A stretch of DNA of 64,000 nt from Oceanisphaera pacifica (lineage in GTDB: Bacteria; Pseudomonadota; Gammaproteobacteria; Enterobacterales; Aeromonadaceae): assembly GCF_017498065.1 (NCBI RefSeq), contig NZ_JAGDFX010000008.1:62001-126000 (forward strand), read 5' to 3'. Below, one piece after another: positions 23,139 to 36,968 of the stretch; position 1 is the stretch's first letter; the number at the start of each line of letters is the position of its first letter. Both the position numbers and the translations under genes were made by a program. The notes beneath the pieces are model-generated. The model worked only from the letters and a program-made list of their open reading frames with translations. It did no database searches and was not told the DNA's origin.

Positions 23139-26100
23139 ATGCAGCAGATGGGTATTTATGAGCAGCTGATTACTCAGTTGGTTGATTCACGTTTAAATCG
23201 TGAACAGTTTTATGTGGGTGAGCGCGTATTAGAAACAGAGGAAGCATCAACTTGGTTATCGCGTTTTTTAAGTGGTATTTTGTCCCATGCAGTCGACTTG
23301 ATTCCCAATGATGCTAACCGATTAGAACAGCAAATTGAGCTTGCTAACCAACTGCTGCTGTGGTTAAAAACTCAGCTTAATGATCCCGACTTCTTTGAAG
23401 AGAACTTACTGGAAAGCCAAGGTAAAGTTCTGACTGCCCTGTATAAGTTAGATAATCCGGTTGCGGCGGATCTTAAAAAATACGTCGCTGATATATTTCC
23501 ATTAACGGGGCTTACACAAAGTGAACTGTTCTGCGGCAGTAACGCTGGGCTTTCATTAGAGTCTGAGCTGAAGCGGGAAATATTGTCGTCCGATAAAATC
23601 TACTGGTTGGTGTCTTTCATTAAGTGGACCGGCATTCGCATTTTTCGTAAAGAGCTGGAAGAATTTACCCGCAGTGGCCGCCAGCTCAAGGTGATTACTA
23701 CTTCTTATATGGGAGCCACTGATGCTAGGGCGGTGGAGTTTTTAGCCGGCCTACCTAATACCGAAGTTAAGCTTAGCTATAACACTCAGAGTGAACGGCT
23801 ACATGCTAAAAGCTATCTGTTTCTGCGTGATACAGGCTTTAATACTGGTTATATAGGTTCTTCAAATTTATCGCATTCAGCGCTAACCAGCGGCTTGGAG
23901 TGGAACCTAAAGATCACCTCTCAAGAAATCCCACATATTATTAAAAAATCCCTGAGTACCTTTGAAACCTATTGGGCTTCAAATGATTTTGAAGTGTTTG
24001 ACGGCCAAGCTGAAAGTCAAACCAAGCTAACTACTGCGCTGCGCGAAGCGCGGGGTAGCTATGCGCCCGCTAATACGCACTTTTTCGACTTAAAGCCTTT
24101 TCCCCATCAGCAAGAAATACTGGAACAGTTAGCCGTTGAGCGTGACTTACATCAACGCTTTAGAAACTTAGTGGTGGCGGCGACCGGCACGGGTAAAACC
24201 TTAATTTCCGCTTTCGACTTTGCTCGATTTTTGCGTAATAAACCGGATGCCACATTTTTGTTTGTAGCCCACCGCCAAGAAATTCTGCAACAAGCCCAAG
24301 CTTCCTATCGGGGGGTGTTACGTAACGGTAACTTTGGAGAATTGTGGGTGGGCGGTGCTAAGCCTGATCACTACCGTCAGTTGTTCGCCTCTATTCAAAC
24401 GCTTAATAATCAGCTCGAAGACTTGTCTTTATCTGCTGATTATTACGACTACATTGTGATTGATGAGGTGCACCACATAGCGGCTAGCAGTTATCGTGCC
24501 GTGCTGAAGTACTTTGCGCCACAAATATTATTAGGCTTAACGGCAACACCTGAGCGACATGATGGCAGTGATATTCTGGCCGACTTTAATGGTGTGATTG
24601 CCGCTGAAATTCGCTTGCCAGAAGCTATCAATCGCCGTCATTTATGCCCGTTTCAATACTTTGCGGTGGATGATGACACTGACTTGCGCAGTATACCTTG
24701 GAGTCGTGGTCGCTACGATATTGCTCAGCTTACTAACTTATATACCCACAATCAGGCGCGAGTGGATAAGATAGTGCAGAGCCTACAAGATATTGTTACC
24801 GATATCGGCAGTGTTAAGGCGTTGGCGTTTTGTGTCAGCCGTAAGCATGCCGATTTTATGTGTAAGCAGTTTTTGCTAAAAGGCATTAACAGCGATATTT
24901 TAACGAGTGATAACAGTGCTGAGCGTCAGCAAAAGCAGCAAGCACTGCGCTCCGGCCAAATTAATGTGTTATTTGTGGTCGATATCTTTAATGAAGGCGT
25001 CGATATACCTGAAGTAGACACATTATTGTTCTTGCGGCCCACCGAAAGCCTGACTATTTTCTTACAGCAATTAGGCCGTGGCTTACGACTGTCTGACGGT
25101 AAAGAATGCTGTACAGTTTTAGATTTTGTCGGCAACTCGCGACCAGAGTATGATTTTGCCGAAAAGTTTAGAGCTTTAGTCGGTAAAACCAATCGCGCCA
25201 TTAGTGATGAGGTCAAGCAGGGTTTTCCGCACGCGCCGCTAGGCTGTCGCATTGAGTTGTCTAAGCGCACCCAAGAAATGGTGCTCGGCAATATCCGCAA
25301 GGCGACGGTGAACTTAACGCGCTTGCTGGGTTTGATCCGCCAGTTTTCCTCACATTCTGACTTGCCATTAACGCTGGCGAATTTTTTGAAAATTAACCCT
25401 AATTTAAAATTAGAAGACATCTATAAAAGAGGCAGGAAAGACGGCAGAAATAGTTTGGCTGGCTTAATTGAGCTGGCTAACCCTAGCCAAGATGGCATTA
25501 GCGCTGATGAAGAGTTAATAAAAGCTTATGAAAGCGCCATCAAAAATAGGCTGTTGAATTGTGACTGCTTTGGTTATCTGCAGTTTTTACGTGATCTCGC
25601 GGCTAACGATTTCACGCTAACCGAACAGATGGACGATCGTCATGCAGTGATGTGCCATTACGACTTTTGGCAAAAGTCCGGGCCAGTATTGGACTTTTCT
25701 ACGCTGGAAGAAAGTTTGAGCGCGCTACAGCATCCCGTCTTGAAAACTGAGTTGTTAGATGTACTCGATTTGTTGATTAATCGCATTCGTCATGAGCAGT
25801 TCTCGCTGGTTAATTTGCCGCTTAATCCACTAAAAGGTCATGCTCGTTATACTCGAGAGCAAATTTTAGCAGGCTTTGGCGTGACCACGTTTGACTATCA
25901 AAAGCCGGCGCGAGAAGGGGTCTTGATGATTGCGGAGCAAAACGTTGAGCTGCTATTTGTCACGCTGAATAAGAATGAAAAACAATTTTCACCCACCACT
26001 ATGTATCATGATTACGCCATTAATGAGCAGCTGTTTCACTGGCAATCCCAGAACAGTGCCCGGCCAGAGCGTGGTAAAGGCTTAAGTTATATTCAGCATC

Positions 26101-26300
26101 AGCAAACTGGTAAACGGCTGTTTTTATTTGTGCGCGAGCAAAGCAAAGATGAATACGGCGCTACCATGGCTTTCGTAAACTTCGGCGAAGTGGAATATGT
26201 CTCCCACTCTGGCAGTCAGCCGATGAACATTACTTGGCAGCTGAAAACAGCCATGCCAGCCTTTATGTGGCAGCAAGCGGCTAAATTAGCAGTGGGGTAA
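23139..26300 (+). CDS. PLD-like nuclease / SF2 helicase / DUF3427 protein
   Basis: 1053 residues. An N-terminal region leads into a phospholipase D-type nuclease segment (about residues 150-270, with HAKSYLFLRD and YIGSSNLSHSAL forming the HxK...N site). A superfamily 2 helicase core follows: Walker A TGTGKT near 348-353, DEVHH near 441, LGLTATPERHDG, and motif VI QQLGRGLR. The C-terminal third is a DUF3427-type domain. This architecture is found in restriction-like and defence neighbourhoods. It is convergent with hipA, with only 6 bp between the stops. AAGGGA precedes the ATG. Nucleic-acid cleavage coupled to translocation is inferred. Confidence 0.85.
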   Translation: MQQMGIYEQLITQLVDSRLNREQFYVGERVLETEEASTWLSRFLSGILSHAVDLIPNDANRLEQQIELANQLLLWLKTQLNDPDFFEENLLESQGKVLTALYKLDNPVAADLKKYVADIFPLTGLTQSELFCGSNAGLSLESELKREILSSDKIYWLVSFIKWTGIRIFRKELEEFTRSGRQLKVITTSYMGATDARAVEFLAGLPNTEVKLSYNTQSERLHAKSYLFLRDTGFNTGYIGSSNLSHSALTSGLEWNLKITSQEIPHIIKKSLSTFETYWASNDFEVFDGQAESQTKLTTALREARGSYAPANTHFFDLKPFPHQQEILEQLAVERDLHQRFRNLVVAATGTGKTLISAFDFARFLRNKPDATFLFVAHRQEILQQAQASYRGVLRNGNFGELWVGGAKPDHYRQLFASIQTLNNQLEDLSLSADYYDYIVIDEVHHIAASSYRAVLKYFAPQILLGLTATPERHDGSDILADFNGVIAAEIRLPEAINRRHLCPFQYFAVDDDTDLRSIPWSRGRYDIAQLTNLYTHNQARVDKIVQSLQDIVTDIGSVKALAFCVSRKHADFMCKQFLLKGINSDILTSDNSAERQQKQQALRSGQINVLFVVDIFNEGVDIPEVDTLLFLRPTESLTIFLQQLGRGLRLSDGKECCTVLDFVGNSRPEYDFAEKFRALVGKTNRAISDEVKQGFPHAPLGCRIELSKRTQEMVLGNIRKATVNLTRLLGLIRQFSSHSDLPLTLANFLKINPNLKLEDIYKRGRKDGRNSLAGLIELANPSQDGISADEELIKAYESAIKNRLLNCDCFGYLQFLRDLAANDFTLTEQMDDRHAVMCHYDFWQKSGPVLDFSTLEESLSALQHPVLKTELLDVLDLLINRIRHEQFSLVNLPLNPLKGHARYTREQILAGFGVTTFDYQKPAREGVLMIAEQNVELLFVTLNKNEKQFSPTTMYHDYAINEQLFHWQSQNSARPERGKGLSYIQHQQTGKRLFLFVREQSKDEYGATMAFVNFGEVEYVSHSGSQPMNITWQLKTAMPAFMWQQAAKLAVG

Positions 26301-26306
26301 GAGAGC

Positions 26307-27572
26307 TCATGCTTTAAGCAGGTTAATATTTTCGTTAATACGGTCCTGAATGAGTTGTAGCGTGTTTTTCGTTATTTGATTATCAAACAAGCTCTGAGCT
26401 CTATTGCTAAAACCTTCTGCCACAGCGCAGTATCGGTCAATAATATTTTCCGCCAAACTGGGTGATAAGTCTGCTTCTTTAACGCCGAGCGAGACCATGA
26501 TTTTGCGGTTAATATTCAGAGCCTCGCCCATAATATCCATCTGATGGTAGCCGCCTGGGCCTTCACAAAAGGTAACATCGTAGGCTGGGGCTAGCTGCCA
26601 CTGACCCTTGGCTGACATTATATAAGCAAAGTTTTTAGGGTGGTCATCACGGTTATTGAATACCACATTAAACACCGCTCGTTCAAAAGCACTGGTTTTT
26701 TCGCGAGCATCATTGGTACATATTTGTGTCGCCCGCAAAAAATTTGCATAGTCTAATGCGCCTGGAGACTGGTAATTAGCACCAGTAAAGGCAGCAAGGC
26801 TTTGCATGGGAACGCGCATATTATTGAGCCGGTCAAAGCGTTTAGTGGCAAAAGCCGCCTGACCATTTGGTAAGTTAAAATGCAGGGTGTCGGGAGTGCT
26901 AATACCGCACTCGCGCAGACACTGAGAATAGACAGCTTCAATCGCACAAACTTCAGGATGTTCTGCTTGAGCGGGAAATTTAATTAACCAAGCTTCTAAA
27001 TTTGCAGTTTCAGCCGTGCTAAAAACACCCGTTTCAGGATTGCGATAAAGTAAGACTTTTGGTCGTGCGCCTTGCGGCGAGCCGCCGATTAGCATGAGCT
27101 GCTGTAAAAACTCTCCGCCTTCACCATCCAATACCGTTTGTACGTCTTGTGCTATTTTTTCAAGGGTGATTTCTTCAGGCGTCGCCGTATCATCTATTGA
27201 TACTGGCCTAAACGACATGGCACCCATGGCCTTATCACCAATGTAACCTAGCCGTACTAAAGGGCTGATGCGAGCAGGATTAAGGCCATTACGCTTAAAC
27301 AAACGATCCATCAGCAGCATGCCCCAACCATCGGGTAAGGCATCATAAACGGGGCCCGGTAACCCTAGCTGATGTGCGGGGAAATCTTTACGTAACTTAG
27401 TTTCGTTTAGCGGTAGCAAATAAGACGATAACTCAACGCCCTTACTTAAGGCCTCATCGCTATACTCGAACAAGATTAAAGGGCGACCCGTTAGTGTGGT
27501 TGATGAAGCTAGCGTGCCCCAATGCCAGCATTCCCCCCAGCCTTCGTAATAAATGTGTATTTTTTCAGGCAT
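26307..27572 (-). CDS. hipA: HipA-family serine/threonine kinase toxin
   Basis: 421 residues from the ATG at 27572 (MPEKIHIYYEG), with AGGAGG upstream inside hipB. Family features: an N-terminal HipA subdomain (PVYDALPDGWGMLLMDR), a kinase lysine region (FATKRFDRL), the catalytic loop NNRDDHPKN near 305-313 and the metal-binding segment LAPAYDVTF near 327. HipA kinases inactivate targets such as glutamyl-tRNA synthetase and cause dormancy; the target here is unknown. It starts one base after the hipB stop, so the pair is translationally linked. Confidence 0.88.
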   Translation of the reverse strand: MPEKIHIYYEGWGECWHWGTLASSTTLTGRPLILFEYSDEALSKGVELSSYLLPLNETKLRKDFPAHQLGLPGPVYDALPDGWGMLLMDRLFKRNGLNPARISPLVRLGYIGDKAMGAMSFRPVSIDDTATPEEITLEKIAQDVQTVLDGEGGEFLQQLMLIGGSPQGARPKVLLYRNPETGVFSTAETANLEAWLIKFPAQAEHPEVCAIEAVYSQCLRECGISTPDTLHFNLPNGQAAFATKRFDRLNNMRVPMQSLAAFTGANYQSPGALDYANFLRATQICTNDAREKTSAFERAVFNVVFNNRDDHPKNFAYIMSAKGQWQLAPAYDVTFCEGPGGYHQMDIMGEALNINRKIMVSLGVKEADLSPSLAENIIDRYCAVAEGFSNRAQSLFDNQITKNTLQLIQDRINENINLLKA

Positions 27573-27573
27573 G

Positions 27574-27879
27574 TTACGACTTCCTCCTAACGCGGTGTCG
27601 CTTATTACTTTCTTCAAAGCGCTGTAGATCATCTAAGCTGTCGATCTTGGGCTGAAACAGCGCTTCTAGCTCTGTAATTCGGCCGAGCACCATGGCGATG
27701 CGCACTAGAGTTTCGAAGCTAGTATTCTGGCCATTTTCTAGGTTAGATAAGGTATTCACACTCACGCCGGCACGCGCTGCCAGCTCTGCCTGAGTCATTT
27801 GCTGGGCAAGGCGCTCTTTGCGCAGCCGCTGACAAAGTAATTCGACGACCTCGCTGGGTTTAGTGAAGGTTAAATCCAT
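27574..27879 (-). CDS. hipB: HipB-like helix-turn-helix antitoxin
   Basis: 101 residues with an XRE-type helix-turn-helix at about residues 17-71 (MTQAELAARAGVSVNTLSNL). HipB proteins bind the operator and neutralise HipA. The C-terminus is charged. Only 30 bp separate its start from the jetD stop, but a likely promoter and a palindromic operator lie there (27891-27927), so it can be expressed apart from the Wadjet cassette. Confidence 0.85.
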   Translation of the reverse strand: MDLTFTKPSEVVELLCQRLRKERLAQQMTQAELAARAGVSVNTLSNLENGQNTSFETLVRIAMVLGRITELEALFQPKIDSLDDLQRFEESNKRHRVRRKS

Positions 27880-27890
27880 TATATTGTGTC

Positions 27891-27927
27891 TTAAGTGGGC
27901 TTTATTGACTTAATGCCCATTATTATA
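27891..27927 (-). promoter_or_regulatory. Predicted hipBA promoter and operator, overlapping the jetD end
   Basis: Read on the minus strand, a TATAAT -10 (plus coordinates 27922-27927) is followed by the perfect interrupted palindrome TTAAGT-N11-ACTTAA (27891-27913), just where transcription would begin. The palindrome covers the jetD stop codon. No strong -35 is seen. HipB binding here would repress its own operon. Inference from spacing and symmetry. Confidence 0.55.
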
Positions 27928-29121
27928 GGTTTTAATTGTAAGGTTCGCCAGTGCGGTTTGCAGTAACGAGAAGGGAATTCTTTCTTGTTCTAAGCGCAAG
28001 TTGGCTTGCCAATGGTGTTGTTTAAGTTGCTGATAAAGTGCCTGTTCAAATTCATTTAGATGCGGTAATTGCGCTGCGCTATGGGGGTTGGTTTCTACTC
28101 CCCAGAGCGGACGACAGTGTGCTAGGGTGTCGTTGTCCATTAGTAGAGATTGCGCCTGTGGAAAGTAGCCGCGTAACTGCGAGAGCATAGCAAAGCCATG
28201 GCTGTCGATATCTCCCCAATAGTGAATACGACAGCTTGCCAACCAAGGCACGTTTTGTAGCATTTGCACACCATAGCCTAAGCCGTAGATCACTAAGGCG
28301 TTGCGCACGGGCGGAAAGGCCAAGCCATTCACTTTGTTCTCGGTAATGAATACCCGGTCGAGTAACAGATCCAGTTTGCTAAAAGCGCTTAGCGGAATAC
28401 TCAGCTCGTCGAGCCCGCCTAGTTCGGCGGCCAGCGCGGGATCGAGCAGCCGAAAACTGACTGTGGGTTGCTCGTAGTTAAGGCCGTAGCGTTTTTCAAA
28501 ACCGTGCTCTCTTAAGCCGCTAATGCTGTCATCTATTGCCGTGGCGGGCAGCAGTTGGTCGAGTAGTATTTTAAGGATCGGCTTATGAGCTTCAATAAAC
28601 TTACTGTCTACGCCAGGTATATCGAGCTGGCGTATATAAAGCCCCGGCCTGGGCTGGTTGACTAAATAACGGCACACCGCCAGTAGTTGCGGCCAGCAAC
28701 CGGCATATTTACCTATAGTGGCGGCGGCTTGTGGTAACCAGTGGCTAAGTTCGGGGAAACGGTTGCTAATTAGCGCGCAGTCGCCAACAAAGTGGCGCCA
28801 ACTTTGTAGTTGACCGACAAAGCGCGCCAATGCCTCCATATTGGCAAATTCGATGGCCACCGGTAAACGCTGGCGGCCCATGGTTGAGAATTGAAACTCG
28901 TGTTCAATGAGTGTCAGCTCTTTTACCCTTGCCAGATCATTGCGCAGTTGCACTAGTTGGCGTTGATATAAGGCAAAGTCATGTAACAGTTGCTTATCAC
29001 TGAGGCGAGGGAGCTTGACTTGGTAGGGAAAGTCGAGCGTTTCCTCTAGCCAAGCTCGGTGCCAGCCTAGGCGCTGCCACTGTTTAGTGAGCTTGTTGCG
29101 AATGGCCTTAACATCCAACAT
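27910..29121 (-). CDS. jetD: Wadjet subunit JetD (DUF3322/DUF2220, Toprim-type nuclease)
   Basis: 403 residues. The N-terminal DUF3322 part (PRLSDKQLLHDFALYQRQL) is followed by the DUF2220 Toprim-like domain with the acidic motif GDIDSHG near residue 303, the expected metal site. In Wadjet, JetD is the nuclease that cuts plasmid DNA after the JetABC SMC complex extrudes a loop and senses a small circle. It starts 4 bp after jetC and is the last gene of the jet cassette before hipB. Confidence 0.92.
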   Translation of the reverse strand: MLDVKAIRNKLTKQWQRLGWHRAWLEETLDFPYQVKLPRLSDKQLLHDFALYQRQLVQLRNDLARVKELTLIEHEFQFSTMGRQRLPVAIEFANMEALARFVGQLQSWRHFVGDCALISNRFPELSHWLPQAAATIGKYAGCWPQLLAVCRYLVNQPRPGLYIRQLDIPGVDSKFIEAHKPILKILLDQLLPATAIDDSISGLREHGFEKRYGLNYEQPTVSFRLLDPALAAELGGLDELSIPLSAFSKLDLLLDRVFITENKVNGLAFPPVRNALVIYGLGYGVQMLQNVPWLASCRIHYWGDIDSHGFAMLSQLRGYFPQAQSLLMDNDTLAHCRPLWGVETNPHSAAQLPHLNEFEQALYQQLKQHHWQANLRLEQERIPFSLLQTALANLTIKTYNNGH

Positions 29122-29125
29122 AAAG

Positions 29126-32100
29126 CTAGTTTATCTCCTGGATCATTTGCTGATAAGGCTGTAATTGTTGTTGCTGAGAGTGCTGATCTAACTGCTGGCG
29201 ATATTCGGCAATAGTCATATTAAGCACCATAGAGAAATTTTGCTGCTGATCGACAAAGTGCACATGCTGCACATAGTGCTCTATGATATCGATCTTTTGT
29301 AATGGCGTAACCAGCAACAATTGCAGACCCAGTTTTTTAAATAATTCTAGGCCAAAACGGGTGCTGTCTTTTGAGCCACGGGCAAAGGCTTCGTCGATCA
29401 CCACTAGGTTAAAGCGGCGGCGCTGCTGCTGGCCTTCTTGGCCTACTAGCCGGTATTGCAACAAGATGGCGGCAGCCAGAATAGAGTAGGCGAGTTTTTC
29501 TTTTTGGCCGCCTGACTTACCTCCGGAATCTGAATAACATTCTTTTTCGCTATTATCTTCACGATAACGTTCAATTACGTTAAATAGCTGCCAATAACGT
29601 ACATCTACCACTTTTTTGGTCCATTTTGGCTCATTGCGCATTTGTTCAATTAAGCTTTTAACCTGTTCAAACTTTTGTTCTGAATATAAGTTGTCGTCGG
29701 TGGCGTATTCTACGCATTGCTTCAGTCGCTGTTTAAATTCGCGGATCTCGACATCCGGTGAGGCCACGCCATCCACTTCTATATAGGTGCCATCTTGATA
29801 ATCCAGCGCGTGTAGCGACTGGTTGATTAAGCGAATGCGCGCAGCTATGTCTTCTTCTTGGCGGTCGAGCTGGCTGCGAAATAGCGCCATGGCACGAATA
29901 GTGTCTTGATTCAGCATATCTTTAAAGCGCTGTTCGTGGCGTGGCAAATCTTCTTGCTGCAACTGGCTCAATAGCGCTTGATACTCCGCTAACGCCGCTA
30001 AACTTTGGTCTAACTCGGTGACATCGTTAGGGAAGGCGTAACCAAATTGGCCCATTGCCTTGATCATTTGGCTTTCTTTGCGACCGCGCTTTTCTTCTAG
30101 ATGCTGAATTTTATCGTTTAACTTACTGCGTAATAAGCTGCCCTGGCTGCCCAGCATTTCTATACGCAAATTCTCGTGGGCGCAGTGTTGGCGGAATAAC
30201 GCGCTAAGGCTTGGGAAGTATAGATCTTGAGTGGTTTGGGCTAAGGCCTGCAACTGAGCTTCACTTGCTGCTAACGCTTGACTGAAATGCTCGATTTCAG
30301 TGTCTAGCTTACCTCGTTCGGTGAGCCGTTGATCTCGCCGCTCTTGTAGCTTGGTATGGCTTGCTTTGGCCGTTTGCAAGGTGTGTTGCAGTGCTTGCAA
30401 CTGATCGGAAGATTGTTCGAGCTGTTGATATTCTTGTTGTAACTGCTCTATGTGCGCCGTTAATTGCGGCCAGTTAAGCTGTTCAAAGTCGAGATCAAAT
30501 TCCGCCAGATTCAAGGCTTGGCGACGAACTTCATCCAACTGTTCACGTTGTTGTTGATGCGCTGCTAGTTGCGCATGTAGTGAGGTGATTGCTTGTTGCA
30601 GTTGCTGATATTGGGCGGTTAACAGTTGTATTTTTTGCTTGTTGCTCCAACCCAGCACATAACGGCTTTGGTCGTTAATGGCATAACGGTCATCTTTTTC
30701 ATGGCGAGAAGGGCCAGACTTTATCTGCCCTTGGGCGGTGAGGCCTTTATTGCTACGGCGAAAATCGTCCAAATTAGCACAGCAGTGATAATTAAAGCGC
30801 TGCGCCAGTTCTTTATCTAGCCAGGCATACAGCGGGCTATCGGGCTTGATCTCCACTTTATCGGGCAACTGGCCGGTATTGGGCTTAATGGGTACATAAT
30901 CGGTTAATGGTTTCACTCTGTGATACACCAAGCGCGAACCCAGTTTGGTTTGCTCAATAAAGTTGCTGACCGACACATATAAGTGCTCGGGTACCAGCAG
31001 GCTAAGGGCAAAGTTATGCAGCACTCGTTCGATAGCGCCTTGCCAAGCCTGTTCGTGGGGCTTTATTTGTAATAGCTCGCCAACGAAGGGTAGCTCGGTT
31101 TCGGGCACATTTAATGCGGCACTAAGTTGCTCGCGGATCTTAAGCTGACGCAAGGGGATATTAGACTGGCGCTTTTTTAACGCGGTAAGTTCATCGTTAA
31201 TGGCACCTTGTTGAGACTGTTGTTGGTTTAAGTCTTGCTTGAGGGTGTCTCTTTGTTGCTCTTGCTGTGTTTGTTGCTGACTAATGTGCTCAACATGCTC
31301 TTTAGCTTGGGCTAAGTTACTAACAAAGGTGTCGGTGGTTAGTTGCTCATTCAAGCCTAAGGCACGCACCAGTTGTTGATAGCGATGGGCGTTGCCTTGG
31401 CGTTGATCGCGATCTTTGCCGAGGCGCTGTATATCTGTGGTTAATTGCTGTAACCGACCGCCACCTTGGCTATAAATGTCTTCGCTCAGCTGCTCAATTT
31501 GCAAGAAGTGCTGGTTTAGCTGTTCGGTGAGCTGTTGTAAGTTGAGGTTAACTTTATCTTGGTCTTGGCGCTTTTGCTGTAGCCGTTTTTGATATAAGGG
31601 CACGGCGAGGCTGGCCATAAACACCTCGCTGAGATCGCGACTGTGATTGAAGTGCTCTTTTTCTTGCGCAGCACTTAGCGCGTCATTACCCAATTGGCTC
31701 ACGGGTTCAAGCAAGCTCACTTTTTGTCGTGCTGCCACCACTGCATCATGCACGCGTTTAAGGGCGTCATAATTGCTTTCTAGCTCAACAATCTGTTTTT
31801 CTATCTCAGGCGCAGTTAGCATATTTTGCCGCACAAAATCAGTCACCGATCCGACCGACTTCATAGAAATTGTTTGGTTGAACAATTCCAGTGCGCGACC
31901 ATCGGCACCCAAGCCTAGCAGTTTACTAAAGCACTGTTGGTAGGGGGCAAAGCTGTCAAATATCTCGATACCAGCCTGTTTGCGGAGACTTTTTCGAAGG
32001 TCGACTATCTTGCTGCCAAAGTGAGTGAAATGGCTGGCTAAATCCAGTTTAATAGGGGCGACCACAAACAGTCGGCGAACTTTACGCTCGCCGGGCTTTA

Positions 32101-32533
32101 GCCAAAATACTTGCGCCAAGGTGACGTCTTGCGCTAATGCCGAGGAATAAAATTGCGCCAGTAATACGCTGTAATGATCTGCGCCGCGCAAACCCACGGC
32201 CTTGGCTTTACCATAGTCATCTTGCTGGGAGGTGTAATAACCGTGAAAGTAAGATTCAAGTGAGCGCTCTTTATCATCGGCCCCTGCGGCCTTATTAAAG
32301 GCGACCTTGCGCGGTGGCACTAGCAGGGTGGTTAGCCCGTCTACCAAGGTGGACTTGCCACTACCAATGTTGCCGGTCAGTAGGCTGTTATTACCGGCGA
32401 GGTTAAGCTGCCAAATTTTTTGATCGAAGGTACCCCAATTCAGCACTTCAAATTGTTGCAATCGAAAGCCATTTAAGGCGCCGGCATTGGCATCAAGATC
32501 AGTGCCGGCATGAGTCAGTTGGGTATCAGTCAT
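29126..32533 (-). CDS. jetC: Wadjet subunit JetC (SMC/MukB-like ATPase)
   Basis: 1135 residues in SMC layout: N-terminal Walker A GNIGSGKST at 54-62, long Gln-rich coiled coils around a short central globular part, and a C-terminal ABC signature SGGQKEKLAYS from about residue 1007 with Walker B LVVIDEAF near 1047. JetC is the loop-extruding motor of the Wadjet complex. It overlaps jetB by 8 bp; GGAG precedes its ATG. Size and motifs match type I Wadjet. Confidence 0.94.
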   Translation of the reverse strand: MTDTQLTHAGTDLDANAGALNGFRLQQFEVLNWGTFDQKIWQLNLAGNNSLLTGNIGSGKSTLVDGLTTLLVPPRKVAFNKAAGADDKERSLESYFHGYYTSQQDDYGKAKAVGLRGADHYSVLLAQFYSSALAQDVTLAQVFWLKPGERKVRRLFVVAPIKLDLASHFTHFGSKIVDLRKSLRKQAGIEIFDSFAPYQQCFSKLLGLGADGRALELFNQTISMKSVGSVTDFVRQNMLTAPEIEKQIVELESNYDALKRVHDAVVAARQKVSLLEPVSQLGNDALSAAQEKEHFNHSRDLSEVFMASLAVPLYQKRLQQKRQDQDKVNLNLQQLTEQLNQHFLQIEQLSEDIYSQGGGRLQQLTTDIQRLGKDRDQRQGNAHRYQQLVRALGLNEQLTTDTFVSNLAQAKEHVEHISQQQTQQEQQRDTLKQDLNQQQSQQGAINDELTALKKRQSNIPLRQLKIREQLSAALNVPETELPFVGELLQIKPHEQAWQGAIERVLHNFALSLLVPEHLYVSVSNFIEQTKLGSRLVYHRVKPLTDYVPIKPNTGQLPDKVEIKPDSPLYAWLDKELAQRFNYHCCANLDDFRRSNKGLTAQGQIKSGPSRHEKDDRYAINDQSRYVLGWSNKQKIQLLTAQYQQLQQAITSLHAQLAAHQQQREQLDEVRRQALNLAEFDLDFEQLNWPQLTAHIEQLQQEYQQLEQSSDQLQALQHTLQTAKASHTKLQERRDQRLTERGKLDTEIEHFSQALAASEAQLQALAQTTQDLYFPSLSALFRQHCAHENLRIEMLGSQGSLLRSKLNDKIQHLEEKRGRKESQMIKAMGQFGYAFPNDVTELDQSLAALAEYQALLSQLQQEDLPRHEQRFKDMLNQDTIRAMALFRSQLDRQEEDIAARIRLINQSLHALDYQDGTYIEVDGVASPDVEIREFKQRLKQCVEYATDDNLYSEQKFEQVKSLIEQMRNEPKWTKKVVDVRYWQLFNVIERYREDNSEKECYSDSGGKSGGQKEKLAYSILAAAILLQYRLVGQEGQQQRRRFNLVVIDEAFARGSKDSTRFGLELFKKLGLQLLLVTPLQKIDIIEHYVQHVHFVDQQQNFSMVLNMTIAEYRQQLDQHSQQQQLQPYQQMIQEIN

Positions 32534-33131
32534 CTTTTTGCTCCTGCTGTGGCGTTAGCAATTGGCTAAATTCGGCAATCTGTTCGGCATTAACAAAGGC
32601 CTTGATGATGCGCTGAACTTCAAAGTCGTTGGGGTGATTGGTAATGCTGCTAAGAAACCCCATTTCGATGACTTTTTTGATCAAGGCATCGTATTCACGC
32701 TGTTGTTTTAGCTCGTTGCTTACCTCTGGGCTGTAAGGCTGCAACCATTGGTATATTTCTTGGCGGCTCACGATCAATCGCGGGGCGCTCTCTTGGTCGT
32801 CGTGTTCGGCCAGTCGCTTACGCAGCGCCACCAATAATAGGGTTTGCGCCAAGGTGAGGCTGCGCCTAGAGATCAGGCGCGGTAATTCGGCATCGTCATT
32901 TTCAAACTGCAGCTGTGCCATAAAGGCATAGCCTTCGGCTTCATCTAGCGTTAGCCCTAAGCCAAGGTGTTGAAAATAATCACGAATAGACTGTTGATCA
33001 CGCAGCAGTTGCTCCCATAAATCCCGATGACGAGCGCGATATACCGGACCTTTAAGTAGTTTTATCAACAATGCTGACTGGTCGCGCTGTGCTTGTTCTG
33101 AAAGCGCATGGCTAGTTAAGGTGTCTGACAT
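32526..33131 (-). CDS. jetB: Wadjet subunit JetB (DUF4194, kite protein)
   Basis: 201 residues. The DUF4194 winged-helix pattern is visible, including RLISRRSLTLAQTLLLVALRKRL and the later VSRQEIYQWLQPY segment. JetB corresponds to the kite subunits of condensins (MukE-like) and links JetA to the JetC heads. GGAG lies eight bases before the ATG. It starts one base after jetA ends and overlaps jetC. Confidence 0.92.
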   Translation of the reverse strand: MSDTLTSHALSEQAQRDQSALLIKLLKGPVYRARHRDLWEQLLRDQQSIRDYFQHLGLGLTLDEAEGYAFMAQLQFENDDAELPRLISRRSLTLAQTLLLVALRKRLAEHDDQESAPRLIVSRQEIYQWLQPYSPEVSNELKQQREYDALIKKVIEMGFLSSITNHPNDFEVQRIIKAFVNAEQIAEFSQLLTPQQEQKDD

Positions 33132-33132
33132 A

Positions 33133-34620
33133 TCAGCGGCTCCGAATAAAGGTGATGGTAGGTATTTGAATGGTGCGAGTCAGCTCTGGCTCAGGCTGCC
33201 AGCGAATGGTTTGTTGTTGTTGCTCGTCAATATGGGCGGGCAGTATTTGCTCGCAAGCCAGCTTAATATAGGTCAGCAGCTCATCTAAGCCATAGCGCAG
33301 TGGGTAGCGTGTAATAACTTGTTCCAGCGTGGTTTGGCCACCGTTATCGAGTAAGCATTGGCTAATGTTTTTTTGTAACTGGAGTTCATCAATATGGCTA
33401 ATCGCTAACAAGGGCGTGAGGTCAACTTGAGCGGTGGCGTCGCCTAATTCTGGCTGTGAGTTAAGGTGTTCGCTGCCTTTATCTTGATACAGCTGGCGAC
33501 TAAAAATAGTATTAATGGCTGCTTGGGTGCCCGCCAGCGTGGTTAGCTCGGCTTTCAGGTCAATGGTGGGCTGGTCGCTTGCTTGCGGTGAAAGGCGTTG
33601 ATGAGCAAGGGCTTCAAACTGATTAATTAGCTCGATAATGCGCCGATTATCCTGAGATTGTTCCTGAATATAACGGCGTAGCTGATCGGTAATTTGCTGG
33701 CGAGTGCCGTGCACCTTGGCGCCGGCCTCTAATAGATAACTATAAAGATGGCTCAGCAGTGCGTCTTGCTGCACTAATACTTTACCTTGCTCTTGGTCAA
33801 GCAGCTGTTGCAGATTGTGGCGCATGCTGTCGCGTAATTGCGGCGTCATCAATAATTCAAAAAAGGCGCTAAAGGACTGACCTTCGTCGGAGTCATCAAT
33901 CACATCTTGATGGCTAAAGATATGATCTAACACTTCGCCTTTATGGCCACCGCGTAGGCTAATAGTTTTGCGGGTTTCTTTGTCGAGGCTACGAAAGTTG
34001 GCTTCCACTTGGCGAAAGTCCCCCAGCAGTTGCCGTGACATATTGGCGAGCAAGAACAATCGTTCACGTATTTGTGTGTCGGAGAAGCCGCTGTCTTGGC
34101 CCAGTTCGACGGCGATGATCTCTTGTTCTATTTCGGCCTTGCGTGCTTGCAGGGTGTGCAACTTGGCTGTGCGGTCTTCGCTGGTGCCTTGCACCAACTC
34201 GCCAATCAAGTCGAGCAGCATCTTGAGTCGTGATTCGGTGCCCACAAACTGGCGGCCTTGTATTTCTTCTAACCAGCGCAGTACTTTTTCGACTTCTGGC
34301 AATAAATCGCATTCTGGCTCATCGGCCTGCTGCGGCAGGTATTTGCGTAAATAGCCGCCTTTGGCATTAATCCAATCATCAATATAGGCCCGTGCCGACT
34401 TGGGGTATCTTTCTTCGCCGTAGCTGTCGGTAATATTAAATAGGTGCTGCTCTAGCATCGATACTAATTCTAAATAAGGAATGCTGCGTCTGTTGGTGGC
34501 AATAAAAGCATGATGAAAAAAGCTTGCCAGCAAGGCGAAGTGCTGAGAGCGCAATAAGCGCAAGGCCAAGCTGTGCTCTTTAAACTGCTCAAGCTGGTCA
34601 TAATTTAGGGCGGTATTCAT
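33133..34620 (-). CDS. jetA: Wadjet subunit JetA (DUF3375, kleisin)
   Basis: 495 residues of DUF3375. The start, with YDQLEQFKEHSLALRLLRSQ, and the HRDVIDD-like region (FSHQDVIDDSDEGQSF) are typical. JetA is the MukF-like kleisin that closes the JetC ring. Its ATG overlaps the stop of the WYL regulator gene by four bases (ATGA), so regulator and complex are translationally coupled. GGAG precedes it. Confidence 0.92.
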   Translation of the reverse strand: MNTALNYDQLEQFKEHSLALRLLRSQHFALLASFFHHAFIATNRRSIPYLELVSMLEQHLFNITDSYGEERYPKSARAYIDDWINAKGGYLRKYLPQQADEPECDLLPEVEKVLRWLEEIQGRQFVGTESRLKMLLDLIGELVQGTSEDRTAKLHTLQARKAEIEQEIIAVELGQDSGFSDTQIRERLFLLANMSRQLLGDFRQVEANFRSLDKETRKTISLRGGHKGEVLDHIFSHQDVIDDSDEGQSFSAFFELLMTPQLRDSMRHNLQQLLDQEQGKVLVQQDALLSHLYSYLLEAGAKVHGTRQQITDQLRRYIQEQSQDNRRIIELINQFEALAHQRLSPQASDQPTIDLKAELTTLAGTQAAINTIFSRQLYQDKGSEHLNSQPELGDATAQVDLTPLLAISHIDELQLQKNISQCLLDNGGQTTLEQVITRYPLRYGLDELLTYIKLACEQILPAHIDEQQQQTIRWQPEPELTRTIQIPTITFIRSR

Positions 34621-35513
34621 AAGCAGGCTCCAGGCAATAGGGCTTTATTGGTGATGGCAGCTAGCTGCTGGTGATCCGCGAGCGCCAGCGGATATTGGGC
34701 CGGATTAAGCCGATAATCGGCTGAGCAATCGACCAGCCATTGCTGCATAACATAGCCGAGCAAGGCTTCTCGTATTTCTAGGTTAAGCCGATCTTGGTGC
34801 ATGCCATAATCGAGTGCTATGGCCTGTGGGTACGGCAATTTAGGGTGTGCCATTAAAGTGAGCGGCAAAATATGATGCCAGCTGGCATCTTGTGCCTGCT
34901 GCTCGCAGTCAGTTACTGTTTGGTCTAGCGGCTGAATACGGGTAAAGCGAGTTAATACAAAATCACGAAAGCTCTGGCTGCGTCGGTCGAAGGCGCGTAC
35001 ATGCCAGCGCCGACCGTTATTGACTAAAGTGTGAGGCACCAACTCGCGACTTTGCTGGCCAGAAGACAAAGAAACATAATCGCAGCTAATGGCTTGGCGT
35101 TGGCTAATGGCCAGCAGCAGCGGCGCTAATAACTGTTCGGCCGGCATAATAGTGGGCACCGCATTCAAGCAAATACCGCTCAGGTTCGGCCCCATGGTGA
35201 GCCCTTGCCAAGCGTGCTTGCTGAGTTGGTCGAGTATCAGCTGGGGATCATGTTCGAACAATGGGGCAAAAGCCGCGGTGCGGTAATACAGCTTGGTATC
35301 GTGGCGCAGCGTTAGGTTGTTGGGGGCTAATTCTCGATAAAGAGCTAAATCACGAGTGCCCGATGCCAGACCGGTTTTAAAGGTTTGCAGCAAGTCGGTG
35401 CGCGCCACTTGGCCAAAATAATGTAAACAACAGTCGATAAAACGCAGCCGCTCACGCTGGGCATGAGGGTAAGCAGTAAGGTCCAGTGTTTGTGACATAA
35501 AATCTTGAGACAT
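34617..35513 (-). CDS. WYL-domain transcriptional regulator of the Wadjet operon (BrxR/CapW-like)
   Basis: 298 residues. The N-terminal winged helix-turn-helix (about 1-90) carries the pattern RLRFIDCCLHYFGQVARTDLL. A WYL domain follows in the middle (ISCDYVSLSSGQQ ... RRWHVRAFDRRSQSFRDF), and a short C-terminal domain completes the BrxR/CapW architecture of defence-island repressors. It is first in the operon and overlaps jetA. The promoter upstream is overlaid by two palindromes that are the likely binding sites. Start at 35513 is taken; an ATG five codons in is possible. Confidence 0.87.
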   Translation of the reverse strand: MSQDFMSQTLDLTAYPHAQRERLRFIDCCLHYFGQVARTDLLQTFKTGLASGTRDLALYRELAPNNLTLRHDTKLYYRTAAFAPLFEHDPQLILDQLSKHAWQGLTMGPNLSGICLNAVPTIMPAEQLLAPLLLAISQRQAISCDYVSLSSGQQSRELVPHTLVNNGRRWHVRAFDRRSQSFRDFVLTRFTRIQPLDQTVTDCEQQAQDASWHHILPLTLMAHPKLPYPQAIALDYGMHQDRLNLEIREALLGYVMQQWLVDCSADYRLNPAQYPLALADHQQLAAITNKALLPGACL

Positions 35514-35541
35514 AGTAGCCAGCCAATAATGAACATGACTG

Positions 35542-35589
35542 AATCATAATGATTAGACCGGCATGGTGCAATCATTATGATTAGATCGG
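35542..35589 (-). promoter_or_regulatory. Wadjet operon promoter with twin palindromic operators
   Basis: On the minus strand TTGCAC (plus coordinates 35566-35571) and TATGAT (35543-35548) are separated by exactly 17 bp. A 13-bp palindrome AATCATAATGATT (35542-35554) covers the -10; its partner AATCATTATGATT (35570-35582) abuts the -35. Both are followed by AGACCGG or AGATCGG, making a 20-bp direct repeat 28 bp apart. This is a repression layout, most likely for the WYL protein. Confidence 0.75.
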
Positions 35590-35710: not shown

Positions 35711-36580
35711 TCACTGCCGGCAAATTTCATCACAGGCGGAGATCAAGCGTTCGGCCAGCATTTTGCTGTGGGTAGAGAGCTTATCTTGGGCGTGTAGGGT
35801 GAGCTCTAGGTTGGGCACGGCGGGTAGGCCGTCTTGCTCGGTTAAAATTCTATGTTCTGGCGTAACCAAGCGCCGTGGTAACAGTGATATGCCAAAGCCG
35901 GCTTCTACGGCACAGCACACGCCAGACAAGCTGGTGCTGACATACGCGAGTCGCCAGCTGCGTCCGAGTCGGTCGAAGGTGTGGGCCATTTCGCTACGAT
36001 ATAAACCGCCAATGGGAAAGGTCACTAATGGCACAGGGTCGCGACTAAGGTTGTTGCTGTGTAGGCTGTCAATCCAACATAGGGGCTCGGGCCAGCTGGC
36101 AAGGCCGGGGGCGCTGCTTTCGCGTTGTTTTACTAAGGCTAAATCCATATCGCTACCCTGAAACTCTTGCCAAATATCGCTGCATAGGCCGCTGGTTACT
36201 TCGAGTCGAATGCCGAGGTGCTGATTAGAAAAAGCCGCTAGGGTGGGCATAATGGCGTGAGTGGCAAAGTCTTCGGGTACCCCTAAACGAATTTTTTGTT
36301 GCTCGGCGCTAATGCTGGTTTGGGCTATGGCTTCGTTCATCATCTGCAAGATGCGCCTAGCATAGTTTAATACCCGCTCGCCTTCTAGAGTGGGGGTAAT
36401 GTAGCGTCCTTTGCGGTGTAATAGCTCGCAACCAAATTGCGCTTCTAGTTTGCGCACCTGTTGGCTAACGGTCGATTGAGTAAGATGGGTGCTTTCACCG
36501 GCACGAGTAAAGCTGCCGGTATCGGCCACCGCAATAAAGCTGCGTAGTAAAATGGGATCTAAAGTAACGTTTAAGTTCAT
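35711..36580 (-). CDS. LysR-family transcriptional regulator
   Basis: About 289 residues from the ATG at 36580 (MNLNVTLDPILLRSF); an upstream TTG at 36598 is less likely. N-terminal helix-turn-helix with TQSTVSQQVRKLEAQFG and a C-terminal substrate-binding domain. It is divergent from the ureidoglycine aminohydrolase gene, separated by 388 bp, so control of that gene is possible. It is separate from the defence cassette, which is read in the same direction but has its own promoter. Confidence 0.88.
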   Translation of the reverse strand: MNLNVTLDPILLRSFIAVADTGSFTRAGESTHLTQSTVSQQVRKLEAQFGCELLHRKGRYITPTLEGERVLNYARRILQMMNEAIAQTSISAEQQKIRLGVPEDFATHAIMPTLAAFSNQHLGIRLEVTSGLCSDIWQEFQGSDMDLALVKQRESSAPGLASWPEPLCWIDSLHSNNLSRDPVPLVTFPIGGLYRSEMAHTFDRLGRSWRLAYVSTSLSGVCCAVEAGFGISLLPRRLVTPEHRILTEQDGLPAVPNLELTLHAQDKLSTHSKMLAERLISACDEICRQ

Positions 36581-36968
36581 GGTTTTCTCTGAATGCAATG
36601 AAGGGTGAAGAGGGCAACATAAGAACAGCTGTAAGCGATCAGCTTTAAGCCGTCAGTTAAAAGCAACAGCAAAACACATGCTAGTATCGAGTATGACGAA
36701 GTTTCAGGGACTCGTTTTAAGTATTAGTAATTAAAGCATTTCAAGCTTAGCGCTGTTCTCTTTGTCGTGCTCTTCACTCTTTACCCCTCGCACTGTACTG
36801 GGTAGTGGCTTAGCCACTAGTTTCCATTAAATTATTTAATTTATCAATCTAGATGCTTTGTTATACAATAACGAGGTTGAAATAAGACACTATCATTTAA
36901 ACAGCTATGCCGTTCGGCGTGGCTTTTGTCGGCAACTGGCCGGCCCCTCGTATTAAAGGACAGAAATC
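36581..36968. other. 388-bp divergent intergenic region
   Basis: No gene seen. It contains a family A repeat (36626-36662), an AT-rich stretch at about 36830-36900 that is the likely promoter region of the ureidoglycine aminohydrolase gene, and a short GCCG-TT-CGGC hairpin near 36909. AAAGGA precedes the ATG at 36969. Confidence 0.5.
36626..36662. repeat. Intergenic repeat, family A
   Basis: AACAGCTGTAAGCGATCAGC followed by TTTAAGCCGTCAGTTAA. It matches 20741-20775 and 61767-61803 over most of its length. Confidence 0.7.

Follow-up and report, generated by a model that had tools for sequence, protein, structure and literature searches.

BrxR proteins, which control BREX operons, have a wHTH-WYL-WCX architecture, stand first in the defence operon and bind an inverted repeat at their own promoter, which they repress. 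The Acinetobacter protein (7t8k) occupies positions -51 to -27, over its own -35 element (PMC9122589), and the E. fergusonii protein of pEFER (7qfz) represses in reporter assays (PMC9122601). The latter report also has a supplementary table of the inverted repeats that precede the genes of 193 BrxR homologues (PMC9122601). CapW, a CBASS regulator of the same architecture (7tb5, 7tb6 and 9c5g), represses its own expression through a single palindrome of 19-24 bp that overlaps the -10 element (PMC9122588). The sole substantive link between WYL regulators and Wadjet in the literature that we searched was co-localization, and the switching on of Wadjet appears to have been little studied.

Here we describe a Wadjet operon whose promoter carries two palindromes that are, with high probability, operators of the operon's own BrxR/CapW-type WYL protein, which would shut off this promoter. 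The BrxR/CapW autorepression scheme is already known, and the present locus would be a further case of it. The operator, its clade-wide word fused to the -35 element and the assignment to Wadjet appear to be new within the literature searched, and this is apparently the first operator proposed for a Wadjet system. The supplementary table of PMC9122601 may, however, already include some of the palindromes described here.

A Wadjet operon headed by a WYL regulator

The locus lies in a 64,000-nucleotide stretch of Oceanisphaera pacifica DNA, hereafter called the window, and consists of a WYL gene followed by jetABCD (Table 1). The best PADLOC models for the four jet genes are JetA1, JetB1, JetC1 and JetD1 (PDLC00457, PDLC00487, PDLC00512 and PDLC00530, respectively). 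The locus is a type I Wadjet, for which plasmid cleavage and exclusion would be expected by homology. Because the genes overlap or sit 1-4 bp apart, the WYL gene and jetABCD very likely form a single operon.

Table 1. Coordinates of the promoter, predicted operators and genes, as positions in the window.
Feature	Position	Strand	Remarks
-35 element TTGCAC	35566..35571	-	3/6 consensus match
Spacer	35549..35565	-	17 bp
-10 element TATGAT	35543..35548	-	5/6 consensus match; 17 bp from -35
Transcription start (predicted)	near 35536		inferred
Operator O1 (predicted), AATCATTATGATT	35542..35554	-	centre near -12; spans entire -10; invariant across three Wadjet homologues
Operator O2 (predicted), 19-bp extended form TCTAATCATAATGATTGCA	35567..35585	-	core 35570-35582; centre near -40; downstream arm enters -35
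20-mer AATCATAATGATTAGACCGG	35542..35561
20-mer AATCATTATGATTAGATCGG	35570..35589
WYL regulator (P0001), BrxR/CapW-like, 298 aa	34617..35513	-	Pfam WYL 1.3e-13; second possible ATG at 35498
jetA (DUF3375)	33133..34620	-	4-bp overlap with WYL stop
jetB (DUF4194, MukE/MksE-like)	32526..33131	-
jetC (SMC-like ATPase)	29126..32533	-
jetD (JetD_C, DUF3322)	27910..29121	-
HipB/HipA-like pair	27574..27879, 26307..27632	-	about 30 bp past jetD
LysR gene	35711..36598		just upstream

The closest solved relative of the WYL protein is the E. fergusonii BrxR (7qfz; E = 1.7e-63, residues 12-295). The homology to BrxR extends over the wHTH, WYL and WCX domains, nearly full length, and in the alignment with 7qfz the WYL-pocket stretches SLSSG, PHTL, RWHVRAFDR and FRDFVLTR are common to both proteins. 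The Acinetobacter BrxR is a more distant match (7t8k; 1.4e-26), and CapW is by sequence a clearly remoter relative (3e-26, of the order of 1e-26). With its wHTH-WYL-WCX architecture, its place at the head of a defence operon and a palindrome on its own promoter, the protein is a member of the BrxR/CapW family, and the binding and repression described for BrxR would extend to it by homology.

In window 23139-27879, Wadjet is adjoined by the HipB/HipA-like pair and by a gene on the plus strand for a 1053-aa restriction-like helicase (PADLOC mREase_IV), and together these form a small defence island.

Twin palindromes on a single promoter

Two copies of the palindrome AATCATWATGATT, centred 28 bp apart, sit upstream of the WYL gene, each within one of two 20-mers of 90% identity that start 28 bp from one another. 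The twin repeats reported in the original prediction on the promoter of the WYL-Wadjet operon are real. The window contains 29 perfect palindromes of the 6+1+6 form, and the twin is the sole pair among them less than 100 bp apart with at most 2 mismatches. In the 3.1 Mb genome the exact 13-mer occurs at these two places only, where chance would give 0.14 exact occurrences and about 1e-6 pairs within 200 bp. Out of 395 genomes of the order, only this one and that of one congener contain the twin pattern.

Taken as hexamers alone, TTGCAC and TATGAT make up an ordinary promoter, and their combination at 17 bp was not among the predictions of a generic promoter scan. Given the predicted transcription start, the centres of O2 and O1 would fall at about -40 and -12, respectively, and the promoter would thus join the operator positions of the BrxR type and the CapW type. 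The predicted O2 covers -49 to -31, as compared with -51 to -27 for the Acinetobacter BrxR, and it overlaps the -35 element by 2 bp in its 13-bp core and by 5 bp in its 19-bp extended form. O1 lies over the -10 element as the CapW palindrome does, although CapW makes do with one such palindrome.

The operator sequence is nonetheless different from that of BrxR, whose half-sites are arranged as 10-5-10 or 11-5-11, as opposed to 8-3-8 here. The site reported for the E. fergusonii BrxR, extracted from NC_011743 with the coordinates given in the publication, is GAAACCTACTG-AAAAA-CAGTAGGTTGC. A transfer of this R-BOX sequence to the Wadjet promoter was rejected as it is a different word, and operator specificity is not simply transferable from the E. 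fergusonii protein because the bound sequence differs.

A search of related genomes for the operator at WYL-Wadjet loci, as the original prediction had proposed, revealed that the twin 28-bp arrangement is kept in three Wadjet homologues. Specifically, G000, G005 and G011 all retain AATCATAATGATTGC, the 28-bp step, AATCATTATGATT and the 17-bp spacer, and G011 does so with both palindromes and the 28-bp/17-bp geometry intact although its sequence upstream of the operator is wholly unrelated. One detail did not survive this comparison: the flank AGA(C/T)CGG, described at first as following each repeat, differs in G005 and G011. It is unconserved among the relatives whereas the core is conserved, and we rejected it as part of the operator.

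Distribution of the proposed operator among WYL regulators

Relatives of the WYL regulator are present in 126 of 298 genomes. In a quick tree of these regulators, 29 of them form a clade (SH-aLRT 100) that shares the operator, and the E. fergusonii BrxR falls outside it. When upstream regions were scored against the consensus TGCAATCAWWWTGATTGCA (maximum 19), which was built from clade members and so makes the scores partly circular, 28 of the 29 clade regulators carried the palindrome upstream of their own gene with a score of at least 14, and 27 with at least 15. These thresholds were reached by 6.5% and 0.8%, respectively, of dinucleotide-shuffled upstream regions. Such a site is found for 3 of 43 regulators outside the clade, and clade member L022 has no recognisable site upstream.

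Promoter geometry, measured as the distance from TTG to TANNNT, provides a much less circular test. At 21 of 23 non-redundant loci, a TANNNT lies exactly 17 bp beyond the TTG at the operator end. The remaining gap lengths between 8 and 27 each have a count of 0 or 1, and none of 161 other TTGs in the same upstream regions has a TANNNT at 17 bp. The promoter with 17-bp spacing proposed for the Wadjet operon is thus upheld as TTGNNN-17-TANNNT in its relatives. As read from these sequences, the downstream arm of the operator doubles as the -35 box across the clade, and poor -35 boxes are usual there because the hexamer also serves as an operator arm.

The genes downstream of clade members vary. 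They include Wadjet (L005-L008), BREX (tested for L111 and L114, and assigned by similarity to L114 for L117 and L123), an Hma-like helicase (L110), a type IIG enzyme (L105) and type I-like restriction (L118). At three closely related type I Wadjet loci (G007, G071 and G091), both the upstream WYL gene and the operator are absent, and we therefore rejected the notion that the operator is a property of Wadjet. Because downstream genes vary and WYL-less Wadjet loci lack the site, the operator tracks the regulator, just as the original prediction had tied it to the WYL protein. The two appear to be gained and lost together.

The congener G007 is instructive in that its JetA is 91% identical and a small ORF takes the place of the WYL gene and operator. 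Its operon is preceded by a remnant that, judged by eye, is similar to the final part of the same LysR gene, which suggests that this Wadjet occupies the same chromosomal site. G007 consequently offers a natural control strain, with Wadjet and without regulator and operator.

In a neighbouring WYL clade (L046, L051, L054, L055 and L063), a one-letter variant, GTATCAAAATGATAC, occurs in L051 and L054, and the others have imperfect versions. This is as expected if the WYL protein reads the site, and it suggests an altered recognition code. In seven genomes of one family (L100-L104, L106 and L108), the same operator is present with no obvious defence gene nearby, and a cation efflux gene and others are found instead. 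These WYL proteins are orphan regulators.

Probable autorepression, its alternatives and operator spacing

Steric-exclusion autorepression is the most likely mode of action, given that the WYL protein is homologous to BrxR and CapW (PMC9122601, PMC9122589, PMC9122588). In the resting cell, WYL dimers would sit on O2, over the -35 element, and on O1, over the -10 element. The bound dimers would shut RNA polymerase out of the single promoter and thereby keep both the regulator and jetABCD low. A ligand entering the WYL/WCX pocket would then free the dimers, a mode of release already proposed for this family, and Wadjet expression would rise.

It is unlikely that the WYL protein bound at these sites chiefly activates, or that it both represses and activates depending on its ligand in the manner of PafBC or DriD. 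These and other wHTH-WYL-WCX proteins do activate, one of the two sites is centred near -40, a position that some activators use, and the -35 element is poor. However, O1 spans the entire -10 element, where a bound protein would block polymerase, and BrxR and CapW, close relatives that have been characterised, are repressors that act from these same positions. The poor -35 box is also general in the clade, owing to the dual role of the hexamer as -35 element and operator arm.

We consider it very improbable that the sites belong to another factor controlling the operon, such as a Fur-like protein or the product of the LysR gene just upstream. The A/T-rich ATNATNAT palindromes do bear a loose likeness to Fur boxes. 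A global regulator, however, should have many sites, and the exact 13-mer is confined to this locus. Moreover, G011 keeps the operator next to unrelated upstream sequence, and the site goes with the WYL gene through the clade and is absent from the WYL-less G007 despite its LysR-like remnant.

Least probable of all is an RNA hairpin, acting as an attenuator or processing site in a LysR read-through transcript: the two palindromes pair as RNA (-25.5 kcal/mol, z -2.9) and a terminator scan between the LysR and WYL genes found none, but twin palindromes pair in RNA by construction, and the majority of clade members, with one site each and no hairpin of this kind, still keep the palindrome and its 17-bp distance to the -10 element, which makes sense for DNA only.

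Returning to autorepression by the WYL protein, we note that the 28-bp step corresponds to 2.67 turns (28/10.5), a non-integral number that places the O1 and O2 dyads on different faces, and same-face cooperativity was rejected. The cooperative binding in the original prediction thus gains no support from the spacing. Extra operator copies elsewhere in the clade are found, by offset, four times at -14, once at +14, once at -28 and three times at +28, the last three being the Wadjet group and hence one lineage. Extra sites number 16, as compared with 2.4 expected from mononucleotide shuffles of loci that are not independent; at -14, 4 are observed and 0.02 expected. Copies displaced by 14 or 28 bp from the one at the promoter, in a 14-bp register, were seen at L014, L018, L019, L027 and L008, and also at L021. 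A 14-bp step is 1.33 turns, such that successive dimers would be rotated by about 120 degrees, and simple same-face cooperativity is not implied.

We tentatively raise the possibility, which we think doubtful at present, that one operator word fused to the -35 element serves the whole WYL clade, whichever of several unrelated defence systems is controlled, and that further copies are placed at steps of 14 bp (14 or 28 bp). If so, where a cell has several such islands, the regulator of one could also act on the Wadjet, BREX or restriction operon of another, and each operon would be held more or less tightly according to its number of 14-bp steps. An exact operator, promoter and regulator are now proposed for Wadjet and are open to standard assays, and the clade-wide word indicates what many WYL regulators that otherwise lack annotation are likely to control.

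Near matches also turned up when the same genome was searched for a regulon of the site. The 13-mer is found with 1 mismatch at three further places (C32 and C15); the copy on C32 probably lies inside a longer reading frame, since no ORF of at least 80 aa closed within the stretch examined. A 20-mer with 2 mismatches, ATGCATTATGATTAGACCGG, is located between divergent TetR-type and GST-like genes (L003, 1501-1520) and has the ATTAGACCGG tail in common. It is probably an unrelated TetR-type site whose likeness is coincidental.
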